From the NCBI GenBank assembly GCA_004764695.1, contig SMSO01000004.1, positions 270,501 through 334,500 on the forward strand: a stretch of DNA of 64,000 bases, given 5' to 3'. This DNA is from Schizochytrium sp. TIO01 (lineage: Eukaryota; Sar; Bigyra; Thraustochytrida; Thraustochytriidae). The notes below the pieces were generated by a model that saw only the letters and a list, made by a program, of their open reading frames with translations, did not search any database and was not told the DNA's origin. Shown here one piece after another: positions 39,280-62,069 of this stretch; the stretch's first letter is position 1; the number at the start of each line of letters is the position of its first letter. The position numbers were made by a program, and so were the translations under genes.

Positions 39280-39417
39280 ATCACACACAACAAAATATGT
39301 CTCACTGCTCTCCATGTAGCCAATTGCGATGCTGAGATGCAAATGCTTGAAGCTGTAATTGAAGAAATCGTGGAGGACGTTTGTTAAGCACAAAGAAAGA
39401 AAAGGTAAAGAAAGCAC

Positions 39418-39550
39418 AAACAAACAAACAAACAAACAAACAAACAAACAAACAAACAAACAAACAAACAAACAAACAAACAAACAAACAAACAAACAAA
39501 CAAACAAACAAACAAACAAACAAACAAACAAACAAACAAACAAACAAACA
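39418..39550. repeat. (CAAA)n microsatellite, about 33 copies
   Basis: A 133-bp uninterrupted tetranucleotide array just downstream of the decayed Asn-rich gene. Confidence 0.98.
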
Positions 39551-42193: not shown

Positions 42194-42309
42194 CAGATCC
42201 AGCAAACCTAAAGTAGACAACTGCAGAGATTGACAGCAAAGACCTAACTCATTCTCCCTCAATCATCGACAAGGATAAAGGACTGCTAATAAACTGGTGA
42301 GTGCTCAAC
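42194..42309 (+). promoter_or_regulatory. 5' leader shared by both giant genes (copy 1)
   Basis: About 115 bp immediately upstream of the ATG closely match the leader of the second copy, including TCATTCTCCCTCAATCATCG and the ATG context. Upstream of 42,194 similarity is lost, marking the 5' edge of the duplication. No TATA-like element at the position where copy 2 has one. Confidence 0.7.
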
Positions 42310-45300
42310 ATGAGTACAAACCAAACATATAGAATCATACGACTGCTCCTTGTGAGCATTGCACTGCTGCTTTCGTGTTATGATTCATATGCCATAAACA
42401 TCAATCTTCCCAATCTCGTCAACGACTATATGAACGCTACGATCGGCTGTGTCTACCAAGGTTCCATTGGTAACAGGGGTAGTGCGATTCAACTTGGCAC
42501 AGCAAGCAATGCAAGTGAGTGCTCTCAAAGTTGTACTTCGCGGTGGCTTAGCTCGCAACTTCGAGGTGTCATTGTGACAGGTATTCGAGATGGCGAAACA
42601 TTTACAGCGTCCTTTGGATCCACCTTTCAATCTGACTCCAGTGTCGACGACATTTTTACAACATGTGTCAGCCTAGTTGGAGACGAGTCATGCACCACAA
42701 CCTATGATGTTTTTGTATCAAATGGCAACGTTCTCACAGACGTTGTGATCAATAAAGCTGAGATCACCGCAGTCACTCTGTCACCGTGTCCCGAATACAC
42801 GATCACAGATGGCTCTGGGGTGATCTTTCAGGATCTCAGTGGGGCAACCATCCCATACCTTCGTCAGCTTGATATGGGTGTGCTAGAAAATGCTACAACA
42901 TTCACAATCTCGGGGGGCTTTTCAAGCTACGCTTGTACCGCATATACCAATGGTCAGTCCTCTGAGTCTTACAAAGGATGCTTATCTTGGGTTTATGACC
43001 CATCGGCCAACACCTGTACCTTGTACAATGACGCAGTCGATGGTGCAGACACTTGGACATATGCCACCGATACAGAACAACCCATATTTGGTAATGCAGT
43101 ATGCGAAAGCCTTGAAAAGGATGTGCAAGGCTTCGTTGCCACAATGGAAGCTACCAAAGGATGCGTTCTCCCAAACGCCAATATTCCTTATGAAGACGTC
43201 GCTACACCTACTACAACATCTGACTTCCATGAATGTCGCCGCATTTGTCAACAGACCGATGACTGTGTAGCATTTGTATTCAATGAAGAAACAAGCCTAT
43301 GTTGGCCTAAAAGTCCAGAAGCAATGAACAATTATGCTGAAAAGTCTGTTACAGCTACAGGAACAGCTTATTGCTCTACATGTCAAACGGGTTACTACTT
43401 TAGATTTATCGCATCATTAACAGATAGTTGCTATCCATGCGAACGAGGCTATTACTGCTCAAACAATGTGCGCTATCAATGCACGGCTGGCGACTACTGC
43501 ATTGAAAGGCTGCTCGAGCAGCCTGAAACGTATGGTGGAAACAATGTTTGTCCTGACAGTCGTACAGGCGTAGCTTGTCAGCATCATGTGTGCCAGATGT
43601 CTAGCACGGGCCAAGCCTTGCTACAGCAAAGCTTTCAAGAGCCAGAAGACTTCGACTATGCCACATATCAAGCAGATTCCATTGTATCTACTCAAGTACT
43701 CGATGAGGAATCTTGGACACTGTCTTTTGACACTGTCATCAAGACCGGAGTCCTTCCAGACACAATGGAATACATGGTAGTTGAGGCACGCCAGACTCAG
43801 GGTACCTCATATAGCGTTCTAGACAGCATGCGTACGCCTGTTCCCAATAGTCTTGAATGTCCCACCATCACTTATGAAGTCACAGGACTTGCTCAGAACG
43901 AACTCCAACCCGGCACCGAAGTTGTCGTGTGTGCAACCGCTTCATGGACGTCGAATGCGAAGCCTACATCCTGGTTTAACCTTACCTCAGAGACGACCGA
44001 TACGAAAGAAGTGGCTTCCTCATGCTATACTCTTGACATCCAGCTCGTGACCAAGCTCAGCATCGACTTAAGCAATATTCATGGATCTATCAGTGTAGGC
44101 GCAGTCGTGGTCACCTACTCTCTTGATGATAGCTCTGAAATCAAGTCTTTGACACTCGACGCAGATGGAGAGTACGAAACGATACTACAGGGTCATTCAA
44201 CAATTACAATCCACAGTGCTACAAAGAGTGGAGTGAATACTAATATTACCTACTGTGCTCTCGGAGATACTTGTTCCGAAAGTCAGGTCAGCGTGTTTCC
44301 TCAAACCATCTCTCTCAATCACCTGGAAAATACAAATATCTACCTCAAAGACGTTAACGGCAGAGTCATCTCTGGAACTATCGATTATCCAAACCTAATG
44401 CAGAAGACGAATGTGACAAACTGCCCTGTGTATAACGCAACCGTTTCTGTTGTCACTACAAGTGCAGGAATTGTTATCGATACGACCACTACAGATGAAT
44501 ATGGAAACTTTCAATTGGCTGTGCAAAACGGAACAACTACTAGCCTGGTGATTGACTACTACGAGCACAGCTTTACAGGAAATGACGCCAACTCCAAGAG
44601 CTTGCTCACAGGCGTATTGGTACAAGATGATATATCTGGAATCTCATTCAGTGACTCCGCGGTGCCTGTAGTAACATTTAATACTGGTGCAACCTTGTGT
44701 AACTATGATATTGGAGATGTCAAAATTTCGATTTCGTCGTCTTCCCCAAACTGTCCTGGAGAAACAAGTGTTACCGCGGAGTCAGCCACGACCGAATTTC
44801 AACTGAGCGGAGATTCATTCACATACTCACTTGAATACATTGACAACCCAGATTTCCAAGAGAGCTTTGATGCGATCTCGATGCATACGTTCAGCGTCTT
44901 GGATGGCGACATAGAGATCAATGCGCAGTACCAGCCAGTACCAGAGCTCACTGTCAGCTTTCCCGACGCTGCTCTTGATTTCGATGATTGTGGCTCTACA
45001 CTTCCTTTTGATGTGATGCTGGAAGGGAGACAAAACACTAGCGTCACAGTCAGGGGCTTTCAAACTTTCAACAAGCAAACCTGCTATTCTCTACCGAGTA
45101 ATACGACGCTCCATGTAGTGAGCGACTTGGCACTTGAATGGGGTGAGTATGGATGTATTGAAGACGCAGATTGCACTGCGTCATTCAACCGCGTGGCAGA
45201 TACGTATTCTTCAAGAAGTTCCATAGCTACGATGTACTTAATGGTTGGCGACCCAAAGGCTCCTCAGCAAACAGGTACAGGCATCGACCCTACCTCGATT

Positions 45301-47982
45301 ACTCGAACAGTCACATTCCGTGTTGAAAATGATCAGATTTGGAATTCAGATGATGAAGCTACTGCAAAGGCTTTGACTACGGAGACTGGGGTGCTTGTGA
45401 TTGGGATCACATCGTTAGAAAGTAACGGCGGAGTGAGTTTTCCAAGTGAGGACTCTGTGCCATTGTATTATCTGTATGCGCCGCCGATGACCTCTGAAGA
45501 CTCTGTAGCAAGTGTAAGTTTTACGGGTTCGTTCTCTACAGAAACTACCACATATGCGGAAGTTGTCAACGAGAACGATGTTGGCGCATCTGTTGAGGTT
45601 TCAGCTGAAGCTGGGTTCTGGTTTGTCCATACATCTGTAACAACGTCAACCAGCGTTGACTCCGTTTCTACTAATGTTGAGTCTCTGGATGACCGGGTCT
45701 CTACAAGCACAGATGAAACAACGTATACATTTGAGACCACCAGTGCTGGAGAGGATCTAGTTCTCTTCATGGGTACTGTCGCTGATTTGACAGAGGCTGT
45801 TGATCTCTCGTTCGATCAGAGTACATGCACTGTAGCCGCAGAGAACACAATGACCTGGGGTGCAGAAGTGAGTACACTCACAGTGTATTCGCGCTCCGCT
45901 TGTGAGCGTGATCTTGCTACCGCAAACAGATTCATCCGCCTGTACAAAAACGACGTATCCAGAGCTGATCAGGTGCAGAATATGCGATTTCAGCGAGACA
46001 ACTGGCAGAGTTTACTTTCTCACTGGGATAATGACAAGCGTGCAGCGCAAAACTATCCTGTTGATTTGTCGAGTGCAGGCGGTTCTGGGGCATCTGGAAA
46101 TACGCTCACCGTGAGCGGGGCATCTGTGTCGTTTTCCGAAACGCTGTCGAATGAGAACTCCGCGGTGACTGATTATGACTGTGCATCTGGCAGCGACACA
46201 TACTCAGCGAGCGTCACTGCATCCGCTAATGTGGATGCTTTCTTCGTCAAGGCGTCTGGATCAGCAACTGTATCAGGGTCGTTCTCTAGGTCATATACCA
46301 GAGAACTAAAGACCACCGAGGGAAATGCAGTCGATGTCACTCGTTCAGTCACCTTCAACACTGGTAACGAGCTGAACCAGCTAACTATGAATGCGTATCG
46401 GTCTCCACATTCTCAATCGTACGTCTTTGATGTAACAAGTGGCCAGACCATGTGCCCACACGTTCCTGGCACCACTCAGATTGAGAACTTTTCTCTGGAC
46501 TATAAGGAAAAGCCTGCAAGTTTATTAAGCAGCGACAGCGGTTCCTTTGCATTTGATATCATTCCGTTGATTCCCAGTGGGCTTGATTTAGATTTGGATC
46601 TGGTCATCTCAGTCGATTCGGCCAGTGCAACTGGAAATATTGCTTATACAATTGGATCTGCCACAGTAAATCAACCCTTCTATGTTAGTGTAGGGGACAC
46701 GCAGACAGTATATGTCTATTTTGAACGTCTTGATTCGCGCATTCGCTCCTCAACTGTGCTTATGCAGGTTGCATCGCAGTGTGATGATAATATTGTCAAA
46801 ACAATCTCATTCAAATTAACATGGGACTCGCCATGTGTTGATGTCGAGTGGGATGGTGATTTGACCAATTTGACATCTTCGTGGTTTTTAACCAATGAAT
46901 CGCCTGAGCTGACACTAGCATACACCCAGGAAGGCTCGTCTGAGACAGGCGATGATAACAAGATAGAGTCTACTGTTGAAGTGTGGGGTCTCCCTTATGA
47001 AGACAGCGTTACTGTGGCAACTACAGAATGGATAAATCTGGGGACATTTGCTAGTGGTTCTCGTGAGCTGACCCTAAATGCTGGAACTGCAAGCTTTCCT
47101 GACGATGGGCGCTATGTCTTGGAGCTCCGTCGCAGTTGCAGTGGTGGGTCCATGGGTTTTCTTGGAGCAACAAAATCAAGTCAACGTTTGGGTATTTTTG
47201 ATACAGCAAGTCCTGAAGTCTTGTCTTGGATCTCTCCCAAAACTGTTTCGACAGCTGTCTCTGCACTACAAGCGATGACATTTCGATTTAATGAGCCTAT
47301 TGACTGTTCTTCCTCGGATCTTTCTGCAAACATTTCAAGGACGAGTGGTAATACAGTAGTTCTTGGGGAAGTTGGGATCTCATGTTCATCCAGTCTCACG
47401 GACGTTTCTGTGGTTCTGATGCTGTCGTCAGAGGCGGAGATGACGGCATGGAGCATGTCACAGGTTACCATTGGGCTATATGGCGTTGAAGATCTTCATG
47501 GAAATGCTTACAAGAGCTCTGCGGGAGATCCGTATCTGGAGCGGACCTTTGTGTTGCCTTCTTTACCACTTCCGGCTTCGGGTAGTACTGCAGTAGGTTC
47601 TGGTGTTCCGAGCGCGACAAAGATGGCATCCATGGTAAGCTCTGTGCGGGAGGCTCTTATTCCAAGTGGGCAAGCCATAAAGTCAACATACATTGAGACT
47701 GGAGATGAGAGCGATGACAACAGTGGTCTTAGTAAAGGTGCAAAAGCAGGCATTGCTGTTGGTGTGATAGTTGGCTCTCTTCTTGTGATTGGCGCAGCAG
47801 TGTTTGCTTGGAAGCGCTACCAAGTTAACTCTGGTTTAGGAAATAGCAGCTTCGGGTCTGGTGGAATGGCTAGCAAACCTGCAGGGTGGGCACGGGCTGC
47901 GAAAGAAAAGGTAAAAGGTATGAGTAACCGTACTAACAAGAAGAATGAGATCTCCCCGACAAGGGTAGAAGATATGTTGTAA
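42310..47982 (+). CDS. Giant type-I membrane protein, tandem copy 1
   Basis: An 1890-residue protein, one exon, ATG at 42310 (a GTG three codons earlier is ignored). Order of parts: signal peptide (residues 1-28, ending DSYA); PAN/Apple- or WSC-like Cys-containing segments (about 46-78, 208-238, 282-335); a Cys-rich module like ephrin-receptor/GCC2 repeats (about 356-430, CYPCERGYYC); an FnIII-like region; a carboxypeptidase-regulatory-like beta domain (about 680-765); Thr/Ser-rich beta regions; then SYVFDVTSGQTMCPHVPGT (about 1380-1397), VASQCDDN (about 1487-1494) and a closing FDTASPEVLSW ... FRFNEPIDC segment, a set I associate with very large extracellular proteins of Bacteroidota and algae. 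One transmembrane helix (about 1813-1834) precedes a 53-residue basic tail ending VEDML. Likely a cell-surface adhesion or recognition protein; ligand unknown. Confidence 0.85.
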   Translation: MSTNQTYRIIRLLLVSIALLLSCYDSYAININLPNLVNDYMNATIGCVYQGSIGNRGSAIQLGTASNASECSQSCTSRWLSSQLRGVIVTGIRDGETFTASFGSTFQSDSSVDDIFTTCVSLVGDESCTTTYDVFVSNGNVLTDVVINKAEITAVTLSPCPEYTITDGSGVIFQDLSGATIPYLRQLDMGVLENATTFTISGGFSSYACTAYTNGQSSESYKGCLSWVYDPSANTCTLYNDAVDGADTWTYATDTEQPIFGNAVCESLEKDVQGFVATMEATKGCVLPNANIPYEDVATPTTTSDFHECRRICQQTDDCVAFVFNEETSLCWPKSPEAMNNYAEKSVTATGTAYCSTCQTGYYFRFIASLTDSCYPCERGYYCSNNVRYQCTAGDYCIERLLEQPETYGGNNVCPDSRTGVACQHHVCQMSSTGQALLQQSFQEPEDFDYATYQADSIVSTQVLDEESWTLSFDTVIKTGVLPDTMEYMVVEARQTQGTSYSVLDSMRTPVPNSLECPTITYEVTGLAQNELQPGTEVVVCATASWTSNAKPTSWFNLTSETTDTKEVASSCYTLDIQLVTKLSIDLSNIHGSISVGAVVVTYSLDDSSEIKSLTLDADGEYETILQGHSTITIHSATKSGVNTNITYCALGDTCSESQVSVFPQTISLNHLENTNIYLKDVNGRVISGTIDYPNLMQKTNVTNCPVYNATVSVVTTSAGIVIDTTTTDEYGNFQLAVQNGTTTSLVIDYYEHSFTGNDANSKSLLTGVLVQDDISGISFSDSAVPVVTFNTGATLCNYDIGDVKISISSSSPNCPGETSVTAESATTEFQLSGDSFTYSLEYIDNPDFQESFDAISMHTFSVLDGDIEINAQYQPVPELTVSFPDAALDFDDCGSTLPFDVMLEGRQNTSVTVRGFQTFNKQTCYSLPSNTTLHVVSDLALEWGEYGCIEDADCTASFNRVADTYSSRSSIATMYLMVGDPKAPQQTGTGIDPTSITRTVTFRVENDQIWNSDDEATAKALTTETGVLVIGITSLESNGGVSFPSEDSVPLYYLYAPPMTSEDSVASVSFTGSFSTETTTYAEVVNENDVGASVEVSAEAGFWFVHTSVTTSTSVDSVSTNVESLDDRVSTSTDETTYTFETTSAGEDLVLFMGTVADLTEAVDLSFDQSTCTVAAENTMTWGAEVSTLTVYSRSACERDLATANRFIRLYKNDVSRADQVQNMRFQRDNWQSLLSHWDNDKRAAQNYPVDLSSAGGSGASGNTLTVSGASVSFSETLSNENSAVTDYDCASGSDTYSASVTASANVDAFFVKASGSATVSGSFSRSYTRELKTTEGNAVDVTRSVTFNTGNELNQLTMNAYRSPHSQSYVFDVTSGQTMCPHVPGTTQIENFSLDYKEKPASLLSSDSGSFAFDIIPLIPSGLDLDLDLVISVDSASATGNIAYTIGSATVNQPFYVSVGDTQTVYVYFERLDSRIRSSTVLMQVASQCDDNIVKTISFKLTWDSPCVDVEWDGDLTNLTSSWFLTNESPELTLAYTQEGSSETGDDNKIESTVEVWGLPYEDSVTVATTEWINLGTFASGSRELTLNAGTASFPDDGRYVLELRRSCSGGSMGFLGATKSSQRLGIFDTASPEVLSWISPKTVSTAVSALQAMTFRFNEPIDCSSSDLSANISRTSGNTVVLGEVGISCSSSLTDVSVVLMLSSEAEMTAWSMSQVTIGLYGVEDLHGNAYKSSAGDPYLERTFVLPSLPLPASGSTAVGSGVPSATKMASMVSSVREALIPSGQAIKSTYIETGDESDDNSGLSKGAKAGIAVGVIVGSLLVIGAAVFAWKRYQVNSGLGNSSFGSGGMASKPAGWARAAKEKVKGMSNRTNKKNEISPTRVEDML

Positions 47983-48785
47983 CGAAGTTTCTCAAATTGA
48001 CGCAACTAAAGTATAAAAGAAATTATTGAAGTAAGATACATCTAAATGTTTAATCTGCCTAACCGAAGCTAACCTAGCTCTCCTTCCACACTAATGAGAT
48101 GTGGTTCTGATTCTTTAGAGGTAATTGAGGAAATGTCTGTATCTGTATTGCTTCTCGGTACACACTTTCATCCTGCCCTTATACAGAACAATCATCCTCT
48201 TTCTCTTTCTCCTGAGTTCACCAGACCCGTCAGACTACCTCTGCATGTTTCACTGCACAAGCTCGTTCCCAATAGAATTATATCTCTCAGAATAAAATGA
48301 GGTTGTGTGGTGTACGGGATCGGAATGGCACGCGAATGTGAATTTGTTGGGAAGGTTTATGTTACCTTTTTTAATCTTATCGTATTTGTCCACGTTACAT
48401 TTATGCTGTATCATGGTTATGCGTACTTTTAGAAGTTGTACTCGTTTTCGGGTGAAGTAGTGCAGATACAGAGCATGAGGCTTAGATATGATTCTAATTG
48501 ACAAACAAACACATAGAAATGGTTTTACTAGTGAGCGTTTTCAGAATTTTTAACTATATTATTAGATTTTTTCTGATATAGTGTTTATATGTTTTGAGAG
48601 GGGTTTTAGCGATTGTTCTGACGGCGTAGTAGCTGTCTGTACCTGGTTTTTTGGCATCCTTTCTTTATTCAACTGAATCGGGGCCTACCTTTTAATACTA
48701 CCTACAACTATTCGATTTCCATTGAAGTTATAGCTACGGTTGTTTGAAAGACTATTAAAGCTGCCGATTGCCTGTATGACAAATT
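47983..48785. other. 3' flank of copy 1
   Basis: AT-rich 3' flank unrelated to the 3' flank of copy 2. Small frames (48094-48300 plus, 48250-48504 minus) show no features. Confidence 0.4.
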
Positions 48786-49424
48786 GTGTGTCACATAACA
48801 CGATTAAAGGCCGTGTTTTCTGGTCCCAACTTGGCTTCATCTTCGAATGCTACCACAAATGTGGTTATGAAACCACTTCATAGTTTGCGCAAATACCACG
48901 AACGTGTAACTGAACTCGAGAAGCAACATTTGGAGGTTCTAATCAACGGGGCTCATAATTGCGATGATTATCAGTCAGAGCTCAATACAGTGGACGATCG
49001 CGATTGTGCTCAGAAATCGCCCAATTTATGCTCCGGATGGGTAATCCACGATTCCATGAGCTTACACTGAAATTATCAACAAAAGAAAGGTTGATCTTTC
49101 TGAACGGAAATGAACGTTACGAGGAGATATTAGAAATCCTCAATACTGTTGTGGGCAACGTATCTACTTATTTTCTATAAATCCTCAGAAGTCTTAAGTT
49201 GCGTTTTTGTATGTTTCAGTCCCGGCATCGAAAGCTATCCAGACAGATTGAATGCTGTTATTGAAAAGAAAAGAAATATTTCAATAAGAAGGCTTTTACA
49301 GTTTGCGATCAAAGGCTTTTACAGTTTGCGATCACTGAAAGAACGGTGACTCCAAATTGGGTCTTCAAGAGGATTGAGACAAATCTAGATGTCGTTAGCT
49401 TGAGCTTACTTAGTTACGATTAAT
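48786..49424 (+). pseudogene. Decayed gene remnant with 23-bp tandem duplication
   Basis: Protein-like sequence in successive frames: HSLRKYHERVTELEKQHLEV, then a shifted frame FMLRMGNPRFHELTLKLSTK and LNGNERYEEILEILNTVV, then after a strong acceptor-like TTTTTGTATGTTTCAG a stretch PGIESYPDRLNAVIEKKRN interrupted by a 23-bp direct duplication (49291-49313 repeated at 49314-49333). Without that duplication the frame continues ERTVTPNWVFKRIETNLDV. Family not recognised; a mobile-element origin is possible. Confidence 0.35.
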
Positions 49425-50117
49425 TTGGGTGTCAACTTAGGACTTTAACAGTTATCACATTACTTTGGCCGCCTGGTCAAGGTGAAGGTGCCTTGCTGCT
49501 TATTTCCTCGCTGGAGAGCATAGTTGGTGTGGTGAAGGGGAAAGTACACCAATGCGTACTCCACGTGCTGACCCAGCTGTAGTGACTTTGTCTATTAGAT
49601 TGGAGGAAGTTCATGATCAGTTAATTGGAAGGAGTGTGAAGTCTTTAGTGATATTCATGTTAACCCAACTTATCGATTAGCAAGTCTAGAAACAGAAGTG
49701 AGAAGTTCTTTGGATGAAAGACTAAAAGATCAAGTAGACTTCGTTGATGAACGTTGAACCAATTTGTTTCAAGACGTGGGTCATAAGCAGATGTGGAGAG
49801 GAACGTCGAATACAGCGATTATAATTCTGACTTGATTCCACCAAAATAGATATTAATCAAAAACAACCTTGAGGTAAGCCACAAAAGATTGTAGCATCAG
49901 TCTACATTAGTCTCTTCCTCATAAGTTAGAAGAAGCTCTTCCAGAATGCATTATAAACAAATTCAAAATTATAAACTCTTGCGAATAAGTTCTGTCTAAA
50001 ATGAAAATATGCTTTTGTTGCAACTGACGAAACCCGCTTGTAAGATCTATCTTGGACGTGGAGGATTTATGAATCGAGGACAGGTTGTTAGTCCTTTCGA
50101 ACATCCTTGGAGAAATG
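49425..50117. other. Degenerate, possibly retroelement-derived stretch
   Basis: On the plus strand 49.5-49.8 kb has broken protein-like pieces (RLEEVHDQLIG; ETEVRSSLDERLKDQVDFVD). On the minus strand at 50024-50056 a SKIDLTSGFRQ motif resembles the first conserved block of Ty3-type reverse transcriptase (family form about SKIDLKSGYHQ), followed by a degenerate segment. No intact polymerase. Confidence 0.3.
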
Positions 50118-50876
50118 TTAACGTTGCGCCCAATCGTTAACACCAATGACGCATTCTTGAAAGTATGGAAGTGTTTGAGCAGCCTGACCTTGAACGTGCT
50201 CGCGCACATTTTGCTGATTTGAGTTCAAAGCAAGGTGGACAACTTGTTTTTGGAATAATGGTCCACTCACAATTGTCATCCGAATGTAACCAGATCTACC
50301 GCTTCGAGATGCTCGATTGTCCATATAGCTATGTAAATTGAAGATCTGGGCAATGGTCAAAGACTGCACTTGCCAACATTCGTACCTTCCGTCATTGAAC
50401 CCAATGCTCTCTTTCAGGGTATCTATGTCTCCACTTCGGTCTACAATATCTGCAGGATATTCATCACATACCCGTGGGTTGAATGGGTTCATTGTGGTCA
50501 GGTGGGGTTCAAAGTGTGCCGTATCCAACTGTTGTGGACGATTCCGTGGAGGATTTATAACTTCGCGAAAGTGATTGATTTCTCTCTCACCAAGATTATA
50601 GGTAGTAGCCACCCAATCGATGAGAGCATAGCCCATAGCAGTAGAGAAGTATCTCGCGCCTCCTACCCGACGTAGATCAATAAAGATGATGCAAGGACCA
50701 TCACAAGGGGTGAACAACGCCGCATCATTTCTTGGCCCAACTTTGTTGACTTCTTCTTTCACTTCTCCCTTAGGTTCCTCCTTCAGTTGAACTCCTTCAA
50801 GAAGCTTGTAGACATCGTCCATGCTAGGAACTGGCACCGAGTTGTTTATGCCTGCTTGTGTAGTGCGTGCAGCCAT
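50118..50876 (-). CDS. Orphan 252-residue protein, possibly mobile-element related
   Basis: A true ATG frame of 252 residues. The N-terminal 60 residues are charged and disordered (EEPKGEVKEEVNK). An ordered region follows, with CIIFIDLRRVGGARYFSTAM, AMGYALIDWVATTYNLGERE and GYIRMTIVSGPLFQKQVVHL. Cys are few and no zinc knuckle, signal peptide or membrane helix is visible. It sits between decayed fragments, and a reverse-transcriptase-like motif lies just downstream on the same strand, which would fit a gag-like capsid gene of a relic retroelement, but I see no diagnostic gag motif. It could equally be a host orphan gene. Confidence 0.45.
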   Translation of the reverse strand: MAARTTQAGINNSVPVPSMDDVYKLLEGVQLKEEPKGEVKEEVNKVGPRNDAALFTPCDGPCIIFIDLRRVGGARYFSTAMGYALIDWVATTYNLGEREINHFREVINPPRNRPQQLDTAHFEPHLTTMNPFNPRVCDEYPADIVDRSGDIDTLKESIGFNDGRYECWQVQSLTIAQIFNLHSYMDNRASRSGRSGYIRMTIVSGPLFQKQVVHLALNSNQQNVREHVQGQAAQTLPYFQECVIGVNDWAQR

Positions 50877-53800
50877 GATTAGGTAGTATAGCTGATTGAA
50901 TAATTCTTTGGCCTTGAATTGCAGTTTTGCTCATGGGGGAGCTAGAGGTCGAAGGAATTTCGTCTATACCACTCGAAGTTACTATGGGGTAGGCATCACG
51001 ATAGTACTTTCATTAGGATAGATCTTGCTAAAGAGTTGACTTACCTGGCCAAAATCAAGAAAAGTTTAAGCTTTGAGCCAGGACCTAAATTAAGGTCTGC
51101 GATTTTATTCGGCCTTTTTGTCGACTAGTGCTACCTACCTTATTCTACTACTTAACACCCACACACTCGATCTTTCGACTCGTAATACTAAGAGGTGTGT
51201 ATTAATTATCATTGCGTAAACTGAATTTTCCCCTCTGAAGCGTCTTTTCTGATTTCCATCAGGAGCCTCCTGTGACAAATAGATACCTTCGTAAGCTTTA
51301 GACAGATCATCAAAATGGCATTGTGCAAGGTCCCCTTTCGAGAGGGTAGTGTACTCTGATTAGTCCTCTTGTGTATCTTGGTGACTGGCAGGTTTAATCG
51401 AGAGGAATCAGAGTGTTCACAATTTGATGAGGTCTACCTAGGTACACAGTTTGAAGTTCTTTGTATGTATCCTATTTGGTGCATTTCTATTTTTGTTGTT
51501 ATTGTTGTTGAAGGCAGACAGAACTACTTGGCGTAAAAGCCCGCCTAGTAGGAATCGCCTTCTACCATACTCTCATTCCTCCAAAGTCACTCCTATCAAT
51601 TCTTTGACTTCAGTAAAGCTCAAGCTAAACCAATTTCTCATGACCTTCTACTACACCTCATCATGAAGGTTAGGGTGAGGCGATCACCAAAAGATAGCGT
51701 AGGTAGAGAGATGAAGGGAAATAATAGTTAGCATTAACATTTGGGAACTGCTGACATGGTCCATTGTCCAGGTCTAGGAATTGTGCACGTTCTACTTGGG
51801 TGTTCTCATAAATACACACCTATGTACACACTTAGCTGTTATGCTTCAATATAACACAAGACTGCGAACGCTATAGTTTTTACCAAATGAAACATGATAC
51901 CCTGATGTTGAAAGATAAGTCTGGATGTATGAAAGTCGATTCTAATGATGGAGGCTTAGAAATGCTTATAAGTTAAATTTGTCATTAAAACCTAGCGATC
52001 TACAGTTCTTGAAGTTGAATTCTAGACCTGTCAATTAATGTTAAATTTGGAGACTAAACCATGCTTTCACAAATGTTACTTTATCTCTTCAAGATTCTAA
52101 AAACATTATTTTGAATGCATATCTAGGATCTTCTTTTAATCTTAAATACCTTGGGTTCACAATTGCACTTCTGGTTGCAAAGTATAATCACATGTAAATC
52201 TTAGTTCTTTTGAGGACGTATAAATCCACGCCATAATTCTAGCTATGTGTTTTATTTCATTTATTCCTTGAATTATATGTATTTGTATATGTGTTCGTAT
52301 ATTATTTTTCTCTTGTCAAGATATTTGTTCTATCAGAGATTACGGTACATGGTATACGAGAACATCTCTATTTACTTAAAAGTCTTTTTTGAGATTCCCA
52401 GTTTTAGGTCCATGAGAACAAGCCATGGCCAGAATCCTGACAAACTTTTATGAGTCTTATGCTGTTAGGAATAAAAATTAGAAGAGTTTAACTATCAAAT
52501 ACAAAGGTGTGAGACCAAGAAAATCCAAGACTGAAAGTGCGCTAAATAATAAACCTATTATTGACTGAGGAAACAAGTTAATGGTTAAGTAATACAAATT
52601 AAGTATGGCTTAATCTCCTAATTACAATATTAACCGATTGACTTTGATGTTCATCTTCAAGGTAAGAGTATGAGATAACTAACTTTACAAGCCTACTTAT
52701 ACGAGCTCGTGTTTATGATCTAACAATTCAGAAACATGTTATATAAAAGTTGATGTACTCATTAGCCTACTTACACAGAAATGATATATGCACGAATCAG
52801 TTTTCACAGTGATTACTGAGAAAGAATACAGATACAACACTACGGGATGACTTTGCAAAGCTTAAAAGAACACCTCTTTGAGATCATGACATGATCACTG
52901 ATGTGTAACACCGCATGAGATGCATTCATACTAAGGAACGAAGGGAACAAAACAAGCTTCGAGAGCAGCTTACAAAGCAAATCCGACAGCAGATCCAAAA
53001 TACTGCAAGCGACCCAAAGCATTTGGATCAACTCAAGCGCACATTCAATAAGACAATTGACAACCCTAGTCTCAGTACTAAGTAACTACTACCATCTTAG
53101 ACCTTTCCTCAAATACCTCTAAATAATCATATCCGCGTTACAATAGTGATCATCAAAACCAACACAACTCAAGCTTCATACTTACAGCTTTCTAACGTGC
53201 TCATGGCACTCCTCTCATAATTTTTAGCACGATAGAACACCAACTGAATATTGACCATGGTCTTCATTTCCCTGTAGAACCTTCTGTGTTTAAGCTATTG
53301 GCAAAGAAAATCTCTCTTTAAATTAAAGATGCTGCTGATCTCCGATAAGTGGCACTTTCTACAAAGCTTCATGGGTGATCTCATAATGGGCTTCATAACT
53401 TGCGTTATTTCTGAGAGACGGACGATATTATTAAGCAGCATTGTTTTAAGAATAATTTAGGATGAGGATATTGTGAAATGAGATCACTTCCTTTTAATAA
53501 TTTAATTGTGTAACATATGTTGTCCTAAATTAGCACAGTGTTCTTTACGATTCTAAATATACTTTATATTTACAATTATGTGTACATATCCTTGAACGAT
53601 TCACTTTCCACTTATTGTTGTCAATCATTCTTTAGAAAGGATGGGTATAACAGCTTGGAACTCGTAGCTAGTTTGTTGGCAAGCACATACCTGCACATGC
53701 TAAAGTGCACGACAAGCCACACGCTCAAGCAACTTGAAACCATGCAAAATAATTTGGAAGCAACATAGATATTTAATATCTAGGTACTACCAGCTATAAC

Positions 53801-55287
53801 ACCCTCTTTCACACTGGTCGTTTGAGTTGCTCATAGCCAGTGTGAACTTTAAAAATAAAATTAAAAAATGCACCTTTAATAATATTTTTAAGTTAAATAA
53901 AAATAACTATCACATGTACCTTTAAAATGAAGAAAAGACGCAGTATTCCACAGATTAATCACTTGCGTCATTCAGATTAGTTCTGAGCACAGAACTCAAC
54001 CGAACGTTGTAATCATACAATTGGTACTGCATGAGCTTTATGTGCTGTGAAAGGTCTCAGCTGCATTGAACGTCAACGAAACCAACTTTATGACAGAGGG
54101 GGCACAACAATGAATTTAAACGTAGGTACGCAAAATACCAGTTCAACATGCTCTAGTTGAAACATGCACATACCTTCAATAGTTCACTGACTTGGAACCT
54201 TAACACGCTCACCCCATGACTTGTGTATAAATTGTGGTGCTGGAACTATCATATCTCTTGAATCGTCCTACTTTTTTTTTTTTCTTTCTTAACTTTTTTA
54301 AAATTAAATTTCAAATATAACAAATTATAAAAATCAGGAAGGGAAAACAACTTATCAATGGGGCAACTTTTCATAGCTGGTCGTGAATCAGAAGCCGAAG
54401 CGGGGTTTATAGACAGGCTCTTAGAGCCTAGATAGATTCTGAATATGCATAAAAATCTCCCTAAACCAGCGCGGCTGAGAAATATGTAAGGTGTTTAGGA
54501 AGAATTGCAACCTTGTGCGAGGGAATCAACGCAGTTTTGAAAGTGCATGGAATCATCTTCAAGCACACACTGAAAAGTCGAAGGGTGCCTGCGTGCATTT
54601 TTGACTAGAGAGTTTAGCACTCATCTTTGACTAGTAACCTAGTCTCGGCGCGCGCAAAAATAGCTTACGCCTCTTTTTGCATTCTTGGAAATAAAAATAT
54701 TATAAAATAAAATAAAATAAAATAGTAAAAATAGTAAAAATATGTTTCTGAGGACGTGGGAATCTGCTTTATAGCATCCAAAACTTGTATTTTGGCCTTA
54801 CTTTTTTTCTATTCGAGAATTTTGTCCAGATCGGCCGTAGTAGTCCAATGACACTATGTGCAATTAGCATGTCTAAAAGCCGACAAAACACCACAACCAT
54901 CATTTCACAGTATTCTACGTCCATGCGTAGCATATGACCAATCTCCAACTATCGATTTTCACTCGCTCGCATTGGTTTGTGCAGTACACCAATGTGCTTT
55001 GCTGAAAATATCCCTCCTTGGCGGTTCCTTTTAGTTTTATTCTTTCTTCTTTGAATCTCACAAAAAAAATAGTATCCTGATTTTAATTTCAAATAAATAA
55101 AAAACGTTTTTAAATAATTAATACATAAGCAGGCCCAACAAACTATTCACCTCCCACCCACATAATCTAATTTAATAAGATTTTCAAAAAGGAATTCAAA
55201 ATCTCCTGTCAGTAGCAGCTTTAAAGCCCATATATAAATTAGGTTCCTATGTCACTTTCCATTCAAGGAATCACATCAGCGATCAAG
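50877..55287. other. Gene-poor spacer between the tandem copies
   Basis: AT-rich. Small remnants: plus 51451-51666 with a hydrophobic start (ILFGAFLFLLLLLL) but no ATG, and plus 52915-53085, a 56-codon ATG frame of charged helix-like sequence (RREQNKLREQLTKQIRQQIQ) that looks like the tail of a larger lost gene. 53.85-53.93, 54.28-54.33, 54.69-54.73 and 55.07-55.12 kb are A/T-only blocks. A TATA-like TATATAAATT lies at 55231-55240, about 165 bp before the second giant gene. Confidence 0.35.
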
Positions 55288-55402
55288 CAGATCCAACAAA
55301 CCTCAATTAGACAATTGCAGAGATTGACAACAAACACCTAACTCATTCTCCCTCAATCATCGACAAGGATAAAGACTGCTAATAAACTGGTGAGTGCTCA
55401 AC
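55288..55402 (+). promoter_or_regulatory. 5' leader shared by both giant genes (copy 2)
   Basis: Matches the copy-1 leader with scattered substitutions and a 1-bp indel (AAAGACT versus AAAGGACT). It is preceded by a TATA-like element at 55231-55240 that copy 1 lacks at the same distance, so the two genes have different upstream promoters. Confidence 0.7.
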
Positions 55403-58400
55403 ATGAGTACAAACCAAACATATAGAATCATACGACTGCTCCTTGTGAGCATTGCACTGCTGCTTTCGTGTTATGATTCATATGCCATAAACATCAATCT
55501 TCCCAATCTCGTCAACGACTATATGAACGCTACGATCGGCTGTGTCTACCAAGGTTCCATTGGTAACAGGGGTAGTGCGATTCAACTTGGCACAGCAAGC
55601 AATGCAAGTGAGTGCTCTCAAAGTTGTACTTCGCGGTGGCTTAGCTCGCAACTTCGAGGTGTCATTGTGACAGGTATTCGAGATGGCGAAACATTTACAG
55701 CGTCCTTTGGATCCACCTTTCAATCTGACTCCAGTGTCGACGACATTTTTACAACATGTGTCAGCCTAGTTGGAGACGAGTCATGCACCACAACCTATGA
55801 TGTTTTTGTATCAAATGGCAACGTTCTCACAGACGTTGTGATCAATAAAGCTGAGATCACCGCAGTCACTCTGTCACCGTGTCCCGAATACACGATCACA
55901 GATGGCTCTGGGGTGATCTTTCAGGATCTCAGTGGGGCAACTATCCCATACCTTCGTCAGCTTGATATGGGTGTGCTGGAAAATGCTACAACATTCACAA
56001 TCTCGGGGGGCTTTTCAAGCTACGCTTGTACCGCATATACCAATGGTCAGTCCTCTGAGTCTTACAAAGGATGCTTATCTTGGGTTTATGACCCATCGGC
56101 CAACACCTGTACCTTGTACAATGACGCAGTCGATGGTGCAGACACTTGGACATATGCCACCGATACAGAACAACCCATATTTGGTAATGCAGTATGCGAA
56201 AGCCTTGAAAAGGATGTGCAAGGCTTCGTTGCCACAATGGAAGCTACCAAAGGATGCGTTCTCCCAAACGTCAATATTCCTTATGAAGAGGTCGCTACAC
56301 CAACTACTACATCTGACTTCCATGAATGTCGCCGCATTTGTCAACAGACCGATGACTGTGTAGCATTTGTATTCAATGAAGAAACAAGCCTATGTTCTCC
56401 CCAAAGCGCAGAAGCAATGAACAATTATGCTGAAAAGTCTAATACAGCTACAGGAACAGCTTATTGCTCTACATGTCAAACGGGTTACTACTTTAGATTT
56501 ATCGCATCATCAACAGATAGTTGCTATCCATGCGAACGAGGCTATTACTGCTCAAACAATCTGCGCTATAAATGCACGGCTGGCGACTACTGCATTGAAA
56601 GGCTGCTCGAGCAGCCTGAAACGTATGGTGGAAACAATGTTTGTCCTGACAGTCGTACAGGCGTAGCTTGTCAGCATCATGTGTGCCAGATGTCTAGCAC
56701 GGGCCAAGCCTTGCTACAGCAAAGCTTTCAAGAGCCAGAAGACTTCGACTATACCTCATATCAAGCAGATTCCATTGTATCTACTCAAGTACTCGATGAG
56801 GAATCTTGGACACTGTCTTTTGACACTGTCATCAAGACCGGAGTCCTTCCGGACACAATGGAATACATGGTAGTTGAGGCACGCCAGACTCAGGGTACCT
56901 CATATAGTGTTCTAGACAGCATGCGTACGCCTGTTCCCGATAGTCTTGAATGTCCCACCATCACTTATGAAGTCACAGGACTTGCTCAGAACGAACTCCA
57001 ACCCGGCACCGAAGTTGTCGTGTGTGCAACCGCTTCATGGACGTCGAATGCGAAGCCTACATCCTGGTTTAACCTTACCTCAGAGACGACCGATACGAAA
57101 GAAGTGGCTTCCTCATGCTATACTCTTGACATCCAGCTCGTGACCAAGCTCAGCATCGACTTAAGCAATATTCATGGATCTATCAGTGTAGGCGCAGTCG
57201 TGGTCACCTACTCTCTTGATGATAGCTCTGAAATCAAGTCTTTGACACTCGACGCAGATGGAGAGTACGAAACGATACTACAGGGTCATTCAACAATTAC
57301 AATCCACAGTGCTACAAAGAGTGGAGTGAGTACTAATATTACCTACTGTGCTCTCGGAGATACTTGTTCCGAAAGTCAGGTCAGCGTGTTTCCTCAAACC
57401 ATCTCTCTCAATCACCTGGAAAATACAAATATCTACCTCAAAGACGTTAACGGCAGAGTCATCTCTGGAACTATCGATTATCCAAACCTAATGCAGAAGA
57501 CGAATGTGACAAACTGCCCTGTGTATAACGCAACCGTTTCTGTTGTCACTACAAGTGCAGGAATTGTTATCGATACGACCACTACAGATGAATATGGAAA
57601 CTTTCAATTGGCTGTGCAAAAAGGAACAACTACTAGCCTGGTGATTGACTACTATGAGCACAGCTTTACAGGAAATGACGCCAACTCCAAGAGCTTGCTC
57701 ACAGGCGTATTGGTACAAGATGATATATCTGGAATCTCATTCAGTGACTCCACGGTGCCTGTAGTAACATTTAATACTGGTGCAACCTTGTGTAACTATG
57801 ATATTGGAGATGTCAAAATTTCGATTTCGTCGTCTTCCCCAAACTGTCCTGGAGAAACAAGTGTTACCGCGGAGTCAGCCACGACCGAATTTCAACTGAG
57901 CGGAGATTCATTCACATACTCACTTGAATACATTGACAACCCAGATTTCCAAGAGAGCTTTGATGCGATCTCGATGCATACGTTCAGCGTCTTGGATGGC
58001 GACATAGAGATCAATGCGCAGTACCAGCCAGTACCAGAGCTCACTGTCAGCTTTCCCGACGCTGCTCTTGATTTCGATGATTGTGGCTCTACACTTCCTT
58101 TTGATGTGATGCTGGAAGGGAGACAAAACACTAGCGTCGCAGTCAGGGGCTTTCAAACTTTCAACAAGCAAACCTGCTATTCTCTACCGAGTAATACGAC
58201 GCTCCATGTAGTGAGCGACTTGGCACTTGAATGGGGTGAGTATGGATGTATTGAAGACGCAGATTGCACTGCGTCATTCAACCGCGTGGCAAATACGTAT
58301 TCTTCAAGAAGTTCCATAGCTACGATGTACTTAATGGTCGGCGACCCAAAGGCTCCTCAGCAAACAGGTACAGGCATCGACCCTACCTCGATTACTCGAA

Positions 58401-61018
58401 CAGTCACATTTCGTGTTGAAAATGATCAGATTTGGAATTCAGATGATGAAGCTACTGCAAAGGCTTTGACTACGGAGACTGGGGTGCTTGTGATTGGGAT
58501 CACATCGTTAGAAAGTAACGGCGGAGTGAGTTTTCCAAGTGAGGACTCTGTGCCATTGTATTATCTGTATGCGCCGCCGATGACCTCTGAAGACTCTGTA
58601 GCAAGTGTAAGTTTTACGGGTTCGTTCTCTACAGAAACTACCACATATGCGGAAGTTGTCAACGAGAACGATGTTGGCGCATCTGTTGAGGTTTCAGCTG
58701 AAGCTGGGTTCTGGTTTGTCCATACATCTGTAACAACGTCAACCAGCGTTGACTCCGTTTCTACTAATGTTGAGTCTCTGGATGACCGGGTCTCTACAAG
58801 CACAGATGAAACAACGTATACATTTGAGACCACCAGTGCTGGAGAGGATCTAGTTCTCTTCATGGGTACTGTCGCTGATTTGACAGAGGCTGTTGATCTC
58901 TCGTTCGATCAGAGTACATGCACTGTAGCCGCAGAGAACACAATGACCTGGGGTGCAGAAGTGAGTACACTCACAGTGTATTCGCGCTCCGCTTGTGAGC
59001 GTGATCTTGCTACCGCAAACAGATTCATCCGCCTGTACAAAAACGACGTATCCAGAGCTGATCAGGTGCAGAATATGCGATTTCAGCGAGACAACTGGCA
59101 GAGTTTACTTTCTCACTGGGATAATGACAAGCGTGCAGCGCAAAACTATCCTGTTGATTTGTCGAGTGCAGGCGGTTCTGGGGCATCTGGAAATACGCTC
59201 ACCGTGAGCGGGGCATCTGTGTCGTTTTCCGAAACGCTGTCGAATGAGAACTCCGCGGTGACTGATTATGACTGTGCATCTGGCAGCGACACATACTCAG
59301 CGAGCGTCACTGCATCCGCTAATGTGGATGCTTTCTTCGTCAAGGCGTCTGGATCAGCAACTGTATCAGGGTCGTTCTCTAGGTCATATACCAGAGAACT
59401 AAAGACCACCGAGGGAAATGCAGTCGATGTCACTCGTTCAGTCACCTTCAACACTGGTAACGAGCTGAACCAGCTAACTATGAATGCGTATCGGTCTCCA
59501 CATTCTCAATCGTACGTCTTTGATGTAACAAGTGGCCAGACCATGTGCCCACACGTTCCTGGCACCACTCAGATTGAGAACTTTTCTCTGGACTATAAGG
59601 AAAAGCCTGCAAGTTTATTAAGCAGCGACAGCGGTTCCTTTGCATTTGATATCATTCCGTTGATTCCCAGTGGGCTTGATTTAGATCTAGATCTGGTTAT
59701 CTCAGTCGATCCAGGCAGTGCAAGCGAGAACATTTCATATACAATTGGATCTGCCACAGTAAATCAACCCTTCAATGTGAGTGTAGGGGACACGCAGACA
59801 ATATATGTTTATTTTGAACGTCTTGATTCGCGCATTCGCTCCTCAACTGTGCTGATGCAGGTTGCATCGCAGTGTGATGATAATATTGTCAAAACAATCT
59901 CATTCAAATTAACATGGGACTCGCCATGTGTTGATGTCGAGTGGGATGGTGATTTGACCAATTTGACATCTTCGTGGTTTTTAACCAATGAATCGCCTGA
60001 GCTGACACTAGCATACACCCAGGAAGGCTCGTCTGAGACAGGCGATGATAACAAGATAGAGTCTACTGTTGAAGTGTGGGGTCTCCCTTATGAAGACAGC
60101 GTTACTGTGGCAACTACAGAATGGATAAATCTGGGGACATTTGCTAGTGGTTCTCGTGAGCTGACCCTAAATGCTGGAACTGCAAGCTTTCCTGACGATG
60201 GGCGCTATGTCTTAGAGCTCCGTCGCAGTTGCAGTGGTGGGTCCATGGGTTTTCTTGGAGCAACAAAATCAAGTCAACGTTTGGGTATTTTTGATACAGC
60301 AAGTCCTGAAGTCTTGTCTTGGATCTCTCCCAAAACTGTTTCGACAGCTGTCTCTGCACTACAAGCAATGACGTTTCGATTTAATGAGCCTATTGACTGT
60401 TCCTCCTCGGATCTTTCTGCAAACATTTCAAGGACGAGTGGTAATACAGTAGTTCTTGGGGAAGTTGGGATCTCATGTTCATCCAGTCTCACGGACGTTT
60501 CTGTGGTTCTGATGCTGTCGTCAGAGGCGGAGATGACGGCATGGAGCATGTCACAGGTTACCATCGGGCTGTTTGGCGTTGAAGATCTTCATGGAAATGC
60601 TTACAAGAGCTCTGCGGGAGATTCGTATCTGGAGCGGACCTTTGTGTTGCCTTCTTTACCACTTCCGGCTTCGGGTAGTACTGCAGTGGGTTCTGGTGTT
60701 CCGAGCGCAACAAAGATGGCATCCATGGTAAGCTCTGTGCGGGAGGCTCTTATTCCAAGTGGGCAAGCCATAAAGTCAACATACATTGAGACTGGAGATG
60801 AGAGCGATGACAACAGTGGTCTTAGTAAAGGTGCAAAAGCAGGCATTGCTGTTGGTGTGATAGTTGGCTCTCTTCTTGTGATTGGCGCAGCAGTGTTTGC
60901 CTGGAAACGCTACCGGGATCGGAGTCAGCTATCAGATTTTACTTTGAGTTCTAACAGCCATGGTGTTAATACAATGACATCTGGGAAAAAAAGTAAACAT
61001 GTTGAAGACATGTTATAA
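55403..61018 (+). CDS. Giant type-I membrane protein, tandem copy 2
   Basis: An 1871-residue paralogue of the 42310 gene, offset by 13,093 bp with no indel visible through residue 1837. Same signal peptide, Cys-rich N-terminal modules, beta-rich ectodomain and transmembrane helix (about 1813-1834). Amino-acid differences are few and clustered: one group at about residues 287-455 (for example SLCSPQSAEAMN versus SLCWPKSPEAMN), one at about 1438-1470 (VDPGSASENISY versus VDSASATGNIAY), and isolated changes elsewhere. From residue 1838 the 34-residue cytoplasmic tail is entirely different from copy 1 (RDRSQLSDFTLSSNSHGVNT ...) except for the terminal VEDML, and the 3' flank is unrelated. Likely a surface recognition or adhesion protein acting beside or instead of copy 1. 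Confidence 0.85.
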   Translation: MSTNQTYRIIRLLLVSIALLLSCYDSYAININLPNLVNDYMNATIGCVYQGSIGNRGSAIQLGTASNASECSQSCTSRWLSSQLRGVIVTGIRDGETFTASFGSTFQSDSSVDDIFTTCVSLVGDESCTTTYDVFVSNGNVLTDVVINKAEITAVTLSPCPEYTITDGSGVIFQDLSGATIPYLRQLDMGVLENATTFTISGGFSSYACTAYTNGQSSESYKGCLSWVYDPSANTCTLYNDAVDGADTWTYATDTEQPIFGNAVCESLEKDVQGFVATMEATKGCVLPNVNIPYEEVATPTTTSDFHECRRICQQTDDCVAFVFNEETSLCSPQSAEAMNNYAEKSNTATGTAYCSTCQTGYYFRFIASSTDSCYPCERGYYCSNNLRYKCTAGDYCIERLLEQPETYGGNNVCPDSRTGVACQHHVCQMSSTGQALLQQSFQEPEDFDYTSYQADSIVSTQVLDEESWTLSFDTVIKTGVLPDTMEYMVVEARQTQGTSYSVLDSMRTPVPDSLECPTITYEVTGLAQNELQPGTEVVVCATASWTSNAKPTSWFNLTSETTDTKEVASSCYTLDIQLVTKLSIDLSNIHGSISVGAVVVTYSLDDSSEIKSLTLDADGEYETILQGHSTITIHSATKSGVSTNITYCALGDTCSESQVSVFPQTISLNHLENTNIYLKDVNGRVISGTIDYPNLMQKTNVTNCPVYNATVSVVTTSAGIVIDTTTTDEYGNFQLAVQKGTTTSLVIDYYEHSFTGNDANSKSLLTGVLVQDDISGISFSDSTVPVVTFNTGATLCNYDIGDVKISISSSSPNCPGETSVTAESATTEFQLSGDSFTYSLEYIDNPDFQESFDAISMHTFSVLDGDIEINAQYQPVPELTVSFPDAALDFDDCGSTLPFDVMLEGRQNTSVAVRGFQTFNKQTCYSLPSNTTLHVVSDLALEWGEYGCIEDADCTASFNRVANTYSSRSSIATMYLMVGDPKAPQQTGTGIDPTSITRTVTFRVENDQIWNSDDEATAKALTTETGVLVIGITSLESNGGVSFPSEDSVPLYYLYAPPMTSEDSVASVSFTGSFSTETTTYAEVVNENDVGASVEVSAEAGFWFVHTSVTTSTSVDSVSTNVESLDDRVSTSTDETTYTFETTSAGEDLVLFMGTVADLTEAVDLSFDQSTCTVAAENTMTWGAEVSTLTVYSRSACERDLATANRFIRLYKNDVSRADQVQNMRFQRDNWQSLLSHWDNDKRAAQNYPVDLSSAGGSGASGNTLTVSGASVSFSETLSNENSAVTDYDCASGSDTYSASVTASANVDAFFVKASGSATVSGSFSRSYTRELKTTEGNAVDVTRSVTFNTGNELNQLTMNAYRSPHSQSYVFDVTSGQTMCPHVPGTTQIENFSLDYKEKPASLLSSDSGSFAFDIIPLIPSGLDLDLDLVISVDPGSASENISYTIGSATVNQPFNVSVGDTQTIYVYFERLDSRIRSSTVLMQVASQCDDNIVKTISFKLTWDSPCVDVEWDGDLTNLTSSWFLTNESPELTLAYTQEGSSETGDDNKIESTVEVWGLPYEDSVTVATTEWINLGTFASGSRELTLNAGTASFPDDGRYVLELRRSCSGGSMGFLGATKSSQRLGIFDTASPEVLSWISPKTVSTAVSALQAMTFRFNEPIDCSSSDLSANISRTSGNTVVLGEVGISCSSSLTDVSVVLMLSSEAEMTAWSMSQVTIGLFGVEDLHGNAYKSSAGDSYLERTFVLPSLPLPASGSTAVGSGVPSATKMASMVSSVREALIPSGQAIKSTYIETGDESDDNSGLSKGAKAGIAVGVIVGSLLVIGAAVFAWKRYRDRSQLSDFTLSSNSHGVNTMTSGKKSKHVEDML

Positions 61019-62069
61019 AATTGATGATGGTGTTCCTTCAATTCAAGGTTCGCGCATTTATTTTTAAAGGAAGAAAACGATTGAGATATTTTTTAGCATT
61101 TGATAAACTTGATTTCAGAATATTAATGTCTACAAAGAAGCATTGAAGCTTTTGCCTTATTTAGGTAATCTATTTCAAGTTTATTTTATCTACGTTTAGC
61201 CAATGAAAGGTTGATGATTCTTGTTTGAGAGGAGTTTAATTGAAAGACATAGTGAAGTTGTGTGAGGTGTCAATGCATGTACTTCGGCCAAGGTGAGGTT
61301 ACTATCAATGTCATGAGACAGTCTTTAGTTTATCTGTGATACTATATGCAAAAAAAAATCAAAAAATCGAGAGGTTGAAGACGCTTTCATAATCTGTTAT
61401 AATGCTGTTGTAGATCATAAACAACATGAGGCAATATTTTAATCCTTGATATGGATGGTTTGTGGCATAGTTTTGTTGTTGTCTTTGTTTTATATGCGCA
61501 CAGCTTTCCACTAAAAAATAATTCCTCTTGGACACTATTGCAGAATAGCTTGTGCTGTGAAGTGTGCAGAGGTAGTCTGACAAGGATAGCGAAGGAGAAA
61601 GAGGGTGGTATTTGAGTGATTGGGGTTTCGGGTCTGCAGACAGGCAGGATACATGTATGAACAGAAAAGTTTGTTAGATTAGGTTGTATATTACTTCAAT
61701 AGATACATTGCGCAGCACTTGTAAGTTTGAAGTTTATAATTTGGTGTTTTATTTTTTAATTAAAAAAGGTCACAGGTAAAATGAGCCATAGTGGAGAGTA
61801 AGCCACCACCGGGCCTACAATGCCGGAAAGAGGGCCTGCCGAGAAGAATTGAGCATGGGCGCCAACGGGGACTGCCCTGATGTTCCTTAAGATTTGACAA
61901 CCTTGGTACTCTTTTCTCAATATAAAATTAAAAGAAGAGAATAGCAAAGCGCAGTTGATTGAAGACAATCACATTGCAACCAAGTATGTGTCTCCTCACT
62001 ATTGTTTCGTTTTGCTTCTGCGTTGGACACAGGGTTGGAGATTCAAACATGATTGACATAGAAAGTTTC
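61019..62069. other. Intergenic between copy 2 and transporter
   Basis: AT-rich 3' flank of copy 2 and 3' flank of the minus-strand transporter (convergent). Only short frames without ATG or features. Confidence 0.4.

Follow-up and report, generated by a model that had tools for sequence, protein, structure and literature searches.

Why would two neighboring genes encode giant surface proteins that are nearly the same outside the cell and diverge as soon as they have crossed the membrane? The pair lies in a 64,000-nucleotide stretch of the Schizochytrium sp. TIO01 genome (the window), and an initial annotation had described near-identical 1837-residue units, 13,093 bp apart, whose identity ended abruptly at 47,821 and 60,914 and gave way to unrelated tails, one extracellular sensor thus being coupled to two different intracellular outputs. 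Its overall observation is partly confirmed, as the anatomy is real and the claim about the tails has to be amended. Two uninterrupted frames are found where the genes had been placed, gene A (42310..47982; 1890 aa), which encodes a type I membrane protein, and gene B (55403..61018; 1871 aa), and the offset of 13,093 bp is recovered (both genes, and the parts of them given below, lie on the forward strand). The genes have 1837 codons in common (5511 bp) with 60 nucleotide differences; 27 of the codons differ synonymously and 26 change a residue, and dN/dS over the whole block is about 0.26. The likeness breaks at the codon after KRY, which follows the membrane helix, just where the identity had been said to stop. 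Upstream, it extends beyond the coding sequence: a single repeat block (42194-47821 and 55288-60914; 98.8% identity across 5630 columns) opens about 115 bp before the ATG and takes in a common leader (42194..42309 in A, 55288..55402 in B) that is 93% identical in its first 87 bp and 100% identical after that.

Both proteins would be adhesin-like, with a PAN domain, a long stalk and one membrane helix. The A protein starts with a probable signal peptide (residues 1–28, 42310..42393), read from the sequence with the cleavage site inferred, and its PAN (apple) domain (Pfam PF00024; residues 288–346, 43171..43347) scores 23.9 bits against a cut-off of 21.4 (E 3.9e-05), with PF00024 present in B as well. 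Toward the C-terminus, a Big_5-like (Ig-like) stretch that falls under Pfam's cut-off (residues 1631–1735, 47200..47514) is followed by a transmembrane helix (residues 1813–1834, 47746..47811, mean hydropathy 2.49), the counterpart of which in B spans 60839..60904. AlphaFold2, run without relatives on two pieces of the window, returned mean pLDDT values of 37.1 and 34.7, and the helix of A contains the only 10-residue block with a mean pLDDT above 70 in an otherwise poor model. Among solved structures, the best relative is Micronemal protein 4 through its apple domain (PDB 2ll3; profile E 9.4e-05), to which the PAN domain of A and B is related in sequence; Micronemal protein 4 is listed with six apple domains (PMC12221091), whereas A and B each have one above the cut-off within about 1,800 residues.

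The differences between the genes are strongly clustered. The densest 120 bp holds 16 of them, a cluster reached in none of 2000 shuffles, and a stretch of 1,275 bp (45319..46593) is identical to B, a run of a length that was also seen in 0 of 2000 shuffles. Two islands of divergence stand out, with bounds that were picked after the differences had been seen: island 1 (residues 281–392, 43150..43485; dS 0.064, dN 0.041), which covers the PAN domain, and island 2 (135 bp, residues 1426–1470; 46585..46719 in A and 59678..59812 in B; dS 0.40, dN 0.07). Synonymous divergence goes from 0.003 in residues 1001–1425 to about 0.40 in residues 1426–1470, and since 10 of the changes in island 2 are synonymous and 7 are not, this island reflects age and not protein selection alone. 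It is probably an unconverted remnant of an older divergence and not a selected patch; in island 1, where dN/dS is about 0.64, selection for difference over the PAN domain could contribute. An outside donor for island 2 was not seen, as residues 1401–1490 of either copy have no nucleotide match in the 12 paralogous loci described below (word size 7, E up to 0.01). The mosaic is judged from the two copies without an outgroup, and the age of the duplication is read from one 135-bp island and the tails, which tempers the conclusion; an old duplication combined with gene conversion is still quite probably the origin of the pair. A gene for a large type I surface protein would have been duplicated in tandem long ago to give A and B, and gene conversion would then have overwritten leader, ectodomain and membrane helix in several tracts. 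As conversion would halt where the partners cease to match, the upstream regions, tails and 3' ends would have drifted over the full age of the duplication.

The tails have the lengths first reported, with 53 residues in A (47821..47979; basic, net charge +5) and 34 in B (60914..61015; serine/threonine-rich, net charge +1). They cannot be called unrelated, however, since both close in VEDML followed by a stop codon (47965..47982 in A, 61001..61018 in B), with three of the five VEDML codons differing between the genes, all in the third base and all synonymously. A scan of the 64,063,054-base genome with the VEDML-stop pattern returns four matches, against one in the reversed control; two are true VEDML-stop ends, those of A and B, one reads VEDMF and one carries TGG at the position of the stop. 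The shorter EDML-stop pattern is matched 23 times (11 in the reversed control), and 9 of these 23 encode EDML with a stop, A and B included. Without the last five residues, the two tails align no better than chance (the score is equalled in 648 of 1000 shuffles), and protein searches of the genome with the tail of A and with that of B each returned only the query itself. Scored by codon usage, the tails reach 2.8 and -0.9, values that intergenic stretches free of stops also cover (maxima 4.7 and 6.2); tail codon usage alone is no proof of coding constraint. That the tails are merely decayed ends is nonetheless unlikely, because VEDML has been retained despite three synonymous changes.

This retention suggests, with somewhat better than even confidence, that VEDML has been under selection as a peptide for docking or sorting. 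Most likely, the two ends descend from one ancestral VEDML, and the linker joining it to the helix lost its likeness through drift and insertions and deletions; VEDML may also have been gained convergently after a tail replacement, since the tails are unalignable beyond the five residues. Its final D-M-L fits the class III PDZ ligand rule of a C-terminal D/E-x-hydrophobic (PMC2891790), a pattern that is weak and common. The genome does contain PDZ domains, the 35 candidates scored having yielded 18 matches, each above the cut-off, and the same profile matches 12 of 14 prokaryote controls; the genome's matches may belong largely to proteases, and their presence does not show binding to VEDML. 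We regard a PDZ-type partner as doubtful; this end could equally well be a signal for trafficking.

Joining these parts, we favor, with moderate confidence, an explanation in which A and B go back to an old tandem duplication, after which the outside was homogenized, the tails drifted and a docking end was kept in common. The two proteins would bind the same outside ligand, and the conserved VEDML would dock both onto one partner, which may be a scaffold of the PDZ type or a receptor in trafficking. The two copies could still vary in expression, in position or in turnover through linkers that are unlike in length and charge and through upstream regions that differ as well. The likeliest setting for their action would be the ectoplasmic network, and a role in adhesion there is conceivable, if somewhat short of probable. 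In Aurantiochytrium limacinum, an ectoplasmic-network candidate similar to Micronemal protein 4, A0A6S8AHQ2, is predicted to be extracellular with a signal peptide and rises at settlement; it comes from a study that lists 18 candidate ectoplasmic-network proteins (PMC12221091). This would tie the domain type, and not genes A and B themselves, to adhesion.

The strongest competitor holds that A and B are paired receptors, in which conversion keeps the ectodomains identical for one ligand while the tails give different or even opposite outputs. The closest layout that we found belongs to such a pair: Siglec-11 and Siglec-16 are neighboring genes, with converted regions about 9 kb apart, whose ectodomains are kept alike by fragmented gene conversion (PMC5701461), much as we infer for A and B, and the resemblance in layout, spacing and patchy conversion speaks for the idea, as do ectodomains that are constrained by the dN/dS given above and tails that are unlike in length and charge. 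The Siglecs, however, are Ig-like lectins, inhibitory and activating, encoded in several exons, whereas A and B are single-frame giant PAN proteins with a common terminal peptide. It is this common VEDML end that counts against two outputs, together with the tails themselves, in neither of which a known signaling motif was recognized by eye (motifs of protists could differ). Furthermore, conversion between tandem duplicates yields the same layout without selection for paired signaling, which weakens the step from different tails to different outputs; the paired-receptor account is accordingly unlikely in our estimate. The original interpretation is thus partly supported: the same ectodomain on different tails stands, the two outputs are weakened, and opposite signaling or allorecognition by A and B is unsupported. 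We would describe the genes as laid out like a paired-receptor locus without classing them as paired receptors. A bolder version, in which a locus of paired surface receptors arose in a protist independently of the vertebrate ones, with one ectodomain held nearly identical by conversion, two different linkers and one private docking peptide, perhaps working the ectoplasmic network, is likewise improbable.

The flanks bear on two further accounts. Within the window, the 7.3-kb spacer between the genes (47983..55287) was not copied along with them, and neither the tails, the 3' ends nor the sequence preceding the leader has a matching duplicate; the sole notable match between flanks is 48 bp long, 83% identical and inverted, and joins the 3' flanks of A and B. 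Directly past the stop codon of A are two blocks of a dispersed repeat (48020-48091 and 48191-48263), which has at least 54 further matches in the genome at 78–92% identity, counted from the 40 candidates that were scored out of 108; past B there is a partial copy in inverted orientation (61535-61581). Sharp block ends, unlike flanks and repeats at these places would suit a recent partial duplication, in which a copy of the 5.63-kb block, made in one event, acquired its tail from sequence at the landing site. Such an end would hardly read VEDML-stop by chance, though, with no third occurrence in 64 Mb, and a single event would leave even divergence in place of a dS of 0.003 adjoining one of 0.40, making this origin very unlikely. 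An assembly artefact, in which one copy would stem from a misjoin or from a haplotype entered twice, is more remote still: near-identical 5-kb repeats can mislead an assembly, but a haplotype entered twice should also have doubled its flanks, whereas flanks and spacer in the window are not copied along with the genes, and each copy has its own in-frame tail and synonymous differences in the common end.

Old duplicates kept alike by conversion, our preferred account, can be compared with the wider family to which A and B belong. Queried with one N-terminal and one C-terminal piece, the genome yielded 12 further loci (L026–L037), 26–46% identical in the matched pieces, giving a family of at least 14 loci with A and B; these counts are lower bounds. 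Seven of the paralogs have one long frame, 24–31% identical to A across the alignment, and interrupted frames in five others (L027, L030, L032, L034 and L035) could be due to introns, errors or pseudogenes. Pfam searches of the nine members with intact frames, A and B among them, find PAN in six, a carboxypeptidase-regulatory-like stretch in three and Big_5 in two (E up to 0.01). Local pairs hold 8 of the 14 loci (A/B, L026/L036, L027/L028 and L030/L031). L027/L028 and L030/L031 retain their tails, the partners matching at 66 of 81 tail residues in the first pair and at 50 of 51 in the second, which we count in favor of our account; identity inside these genes also seems uneven, at about 86–100% per 200 columns. 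The L027/L028 tandem pair was apparently copied together with a neighboring gene that bears a RING-like C-terminus, as judged by eye. In a tree built from the C-terminal rows of all 14, A is grouped with B (95/88) and 6 of the 11 inner branches are left open. Outside this genome, no relatives were confirmed among 27 pattern-matching stretches in viral contigs or 54 in prokaryote genomes.

The C-terminal frames of the 12 other loci repeat the general arrangement of A and B without their end. A clear hydrophobic stretch followed by a tail of 33–93 residues is present in 11 of the 12, that of L034 being unconvincing (hydropathy 0.72), and none of the 12 closes in VEDML, a point against our account. 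Half of them (L030, L031, L033, L035, L036 and L037) carry NPx[FY], an endocytic signal, near the C-terminus, in the context S-[LM]-N-P-[SG]-F in four of the six tails; two of the six, L030 and L031, are near-copies, and L032 has NPSS. The motif is absent from the tails of A and B. Domains of the PTB/PID type, which read NPx[FY], had no match in the genome, and the controls gave none either.

Tandem surface genes that evolve in concert while their ends escape are already known, and A and B would add an instance. CEACAM1 and its ruminant paralogs show concerted evolution by gene conversion from which part of the gene escapes (PMC7042247), and in this the family resembles A and B. The escaping part differs: the leader exon and introns of CEACAM32 convert and the Ig-domain exons escape, whereas in A and B it is the tail that escapes a conversion seemingly affecting both leader and ectodomain. 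The interest of the pair lies in the private end common to both and in the protist setting. Among the matches listed in one literature library, which is not proof of novelty, no description of the pair appeared in the titles and abstract openings on thraustochytrids and labyrinthulomycetes or on PAN domains in oomycetes; nothing in that library joins protist gene conversion with an ectodomain and a cytoplasmic tail, and the thraustochytrid gene-conversion work in it concerns P-type ATPases. If our explanation is true, the locus would be a clear protist case in which the homogenizing effect of concerted evolution is confined to the outer part of a surface protein, and the private C-terminal peptide could be used as bait. 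The family would also offer an adhesion candidate in thraustochytrids, whose ectoplasmic-network proteins remain to be found.

Several minor features were noted in the surroundings and elsewhere in the genome. The spacer contains a 252-residue frame on the reverse strand (50118-50876), for which a genome search returned the query alone and Pfam gave nothing at E up to 0.01. No tRNA was found anywhere in the window, and Rfam at gathering score gave no match in 40000-64000. The genome also has a PfaA-like polyunsaturated fatty acid synthase gene, which matches the model's middle part repeatedly and exceeds the family cut-off, a level that none of the 14 control genomes reaches; eukaryotic PfaA-like genes are known from thraustochytrids. 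The G+C content of the window is 44%, and the genome of Schizochytrium limacinum SR21 is listed at 63 Mb with 49.99% G+C (PMC7179369). Finally, upstream of gene A lies a short tandem repeat (39416-39550), the minus strand of which reads repeated MFVCLFVCLFVC.
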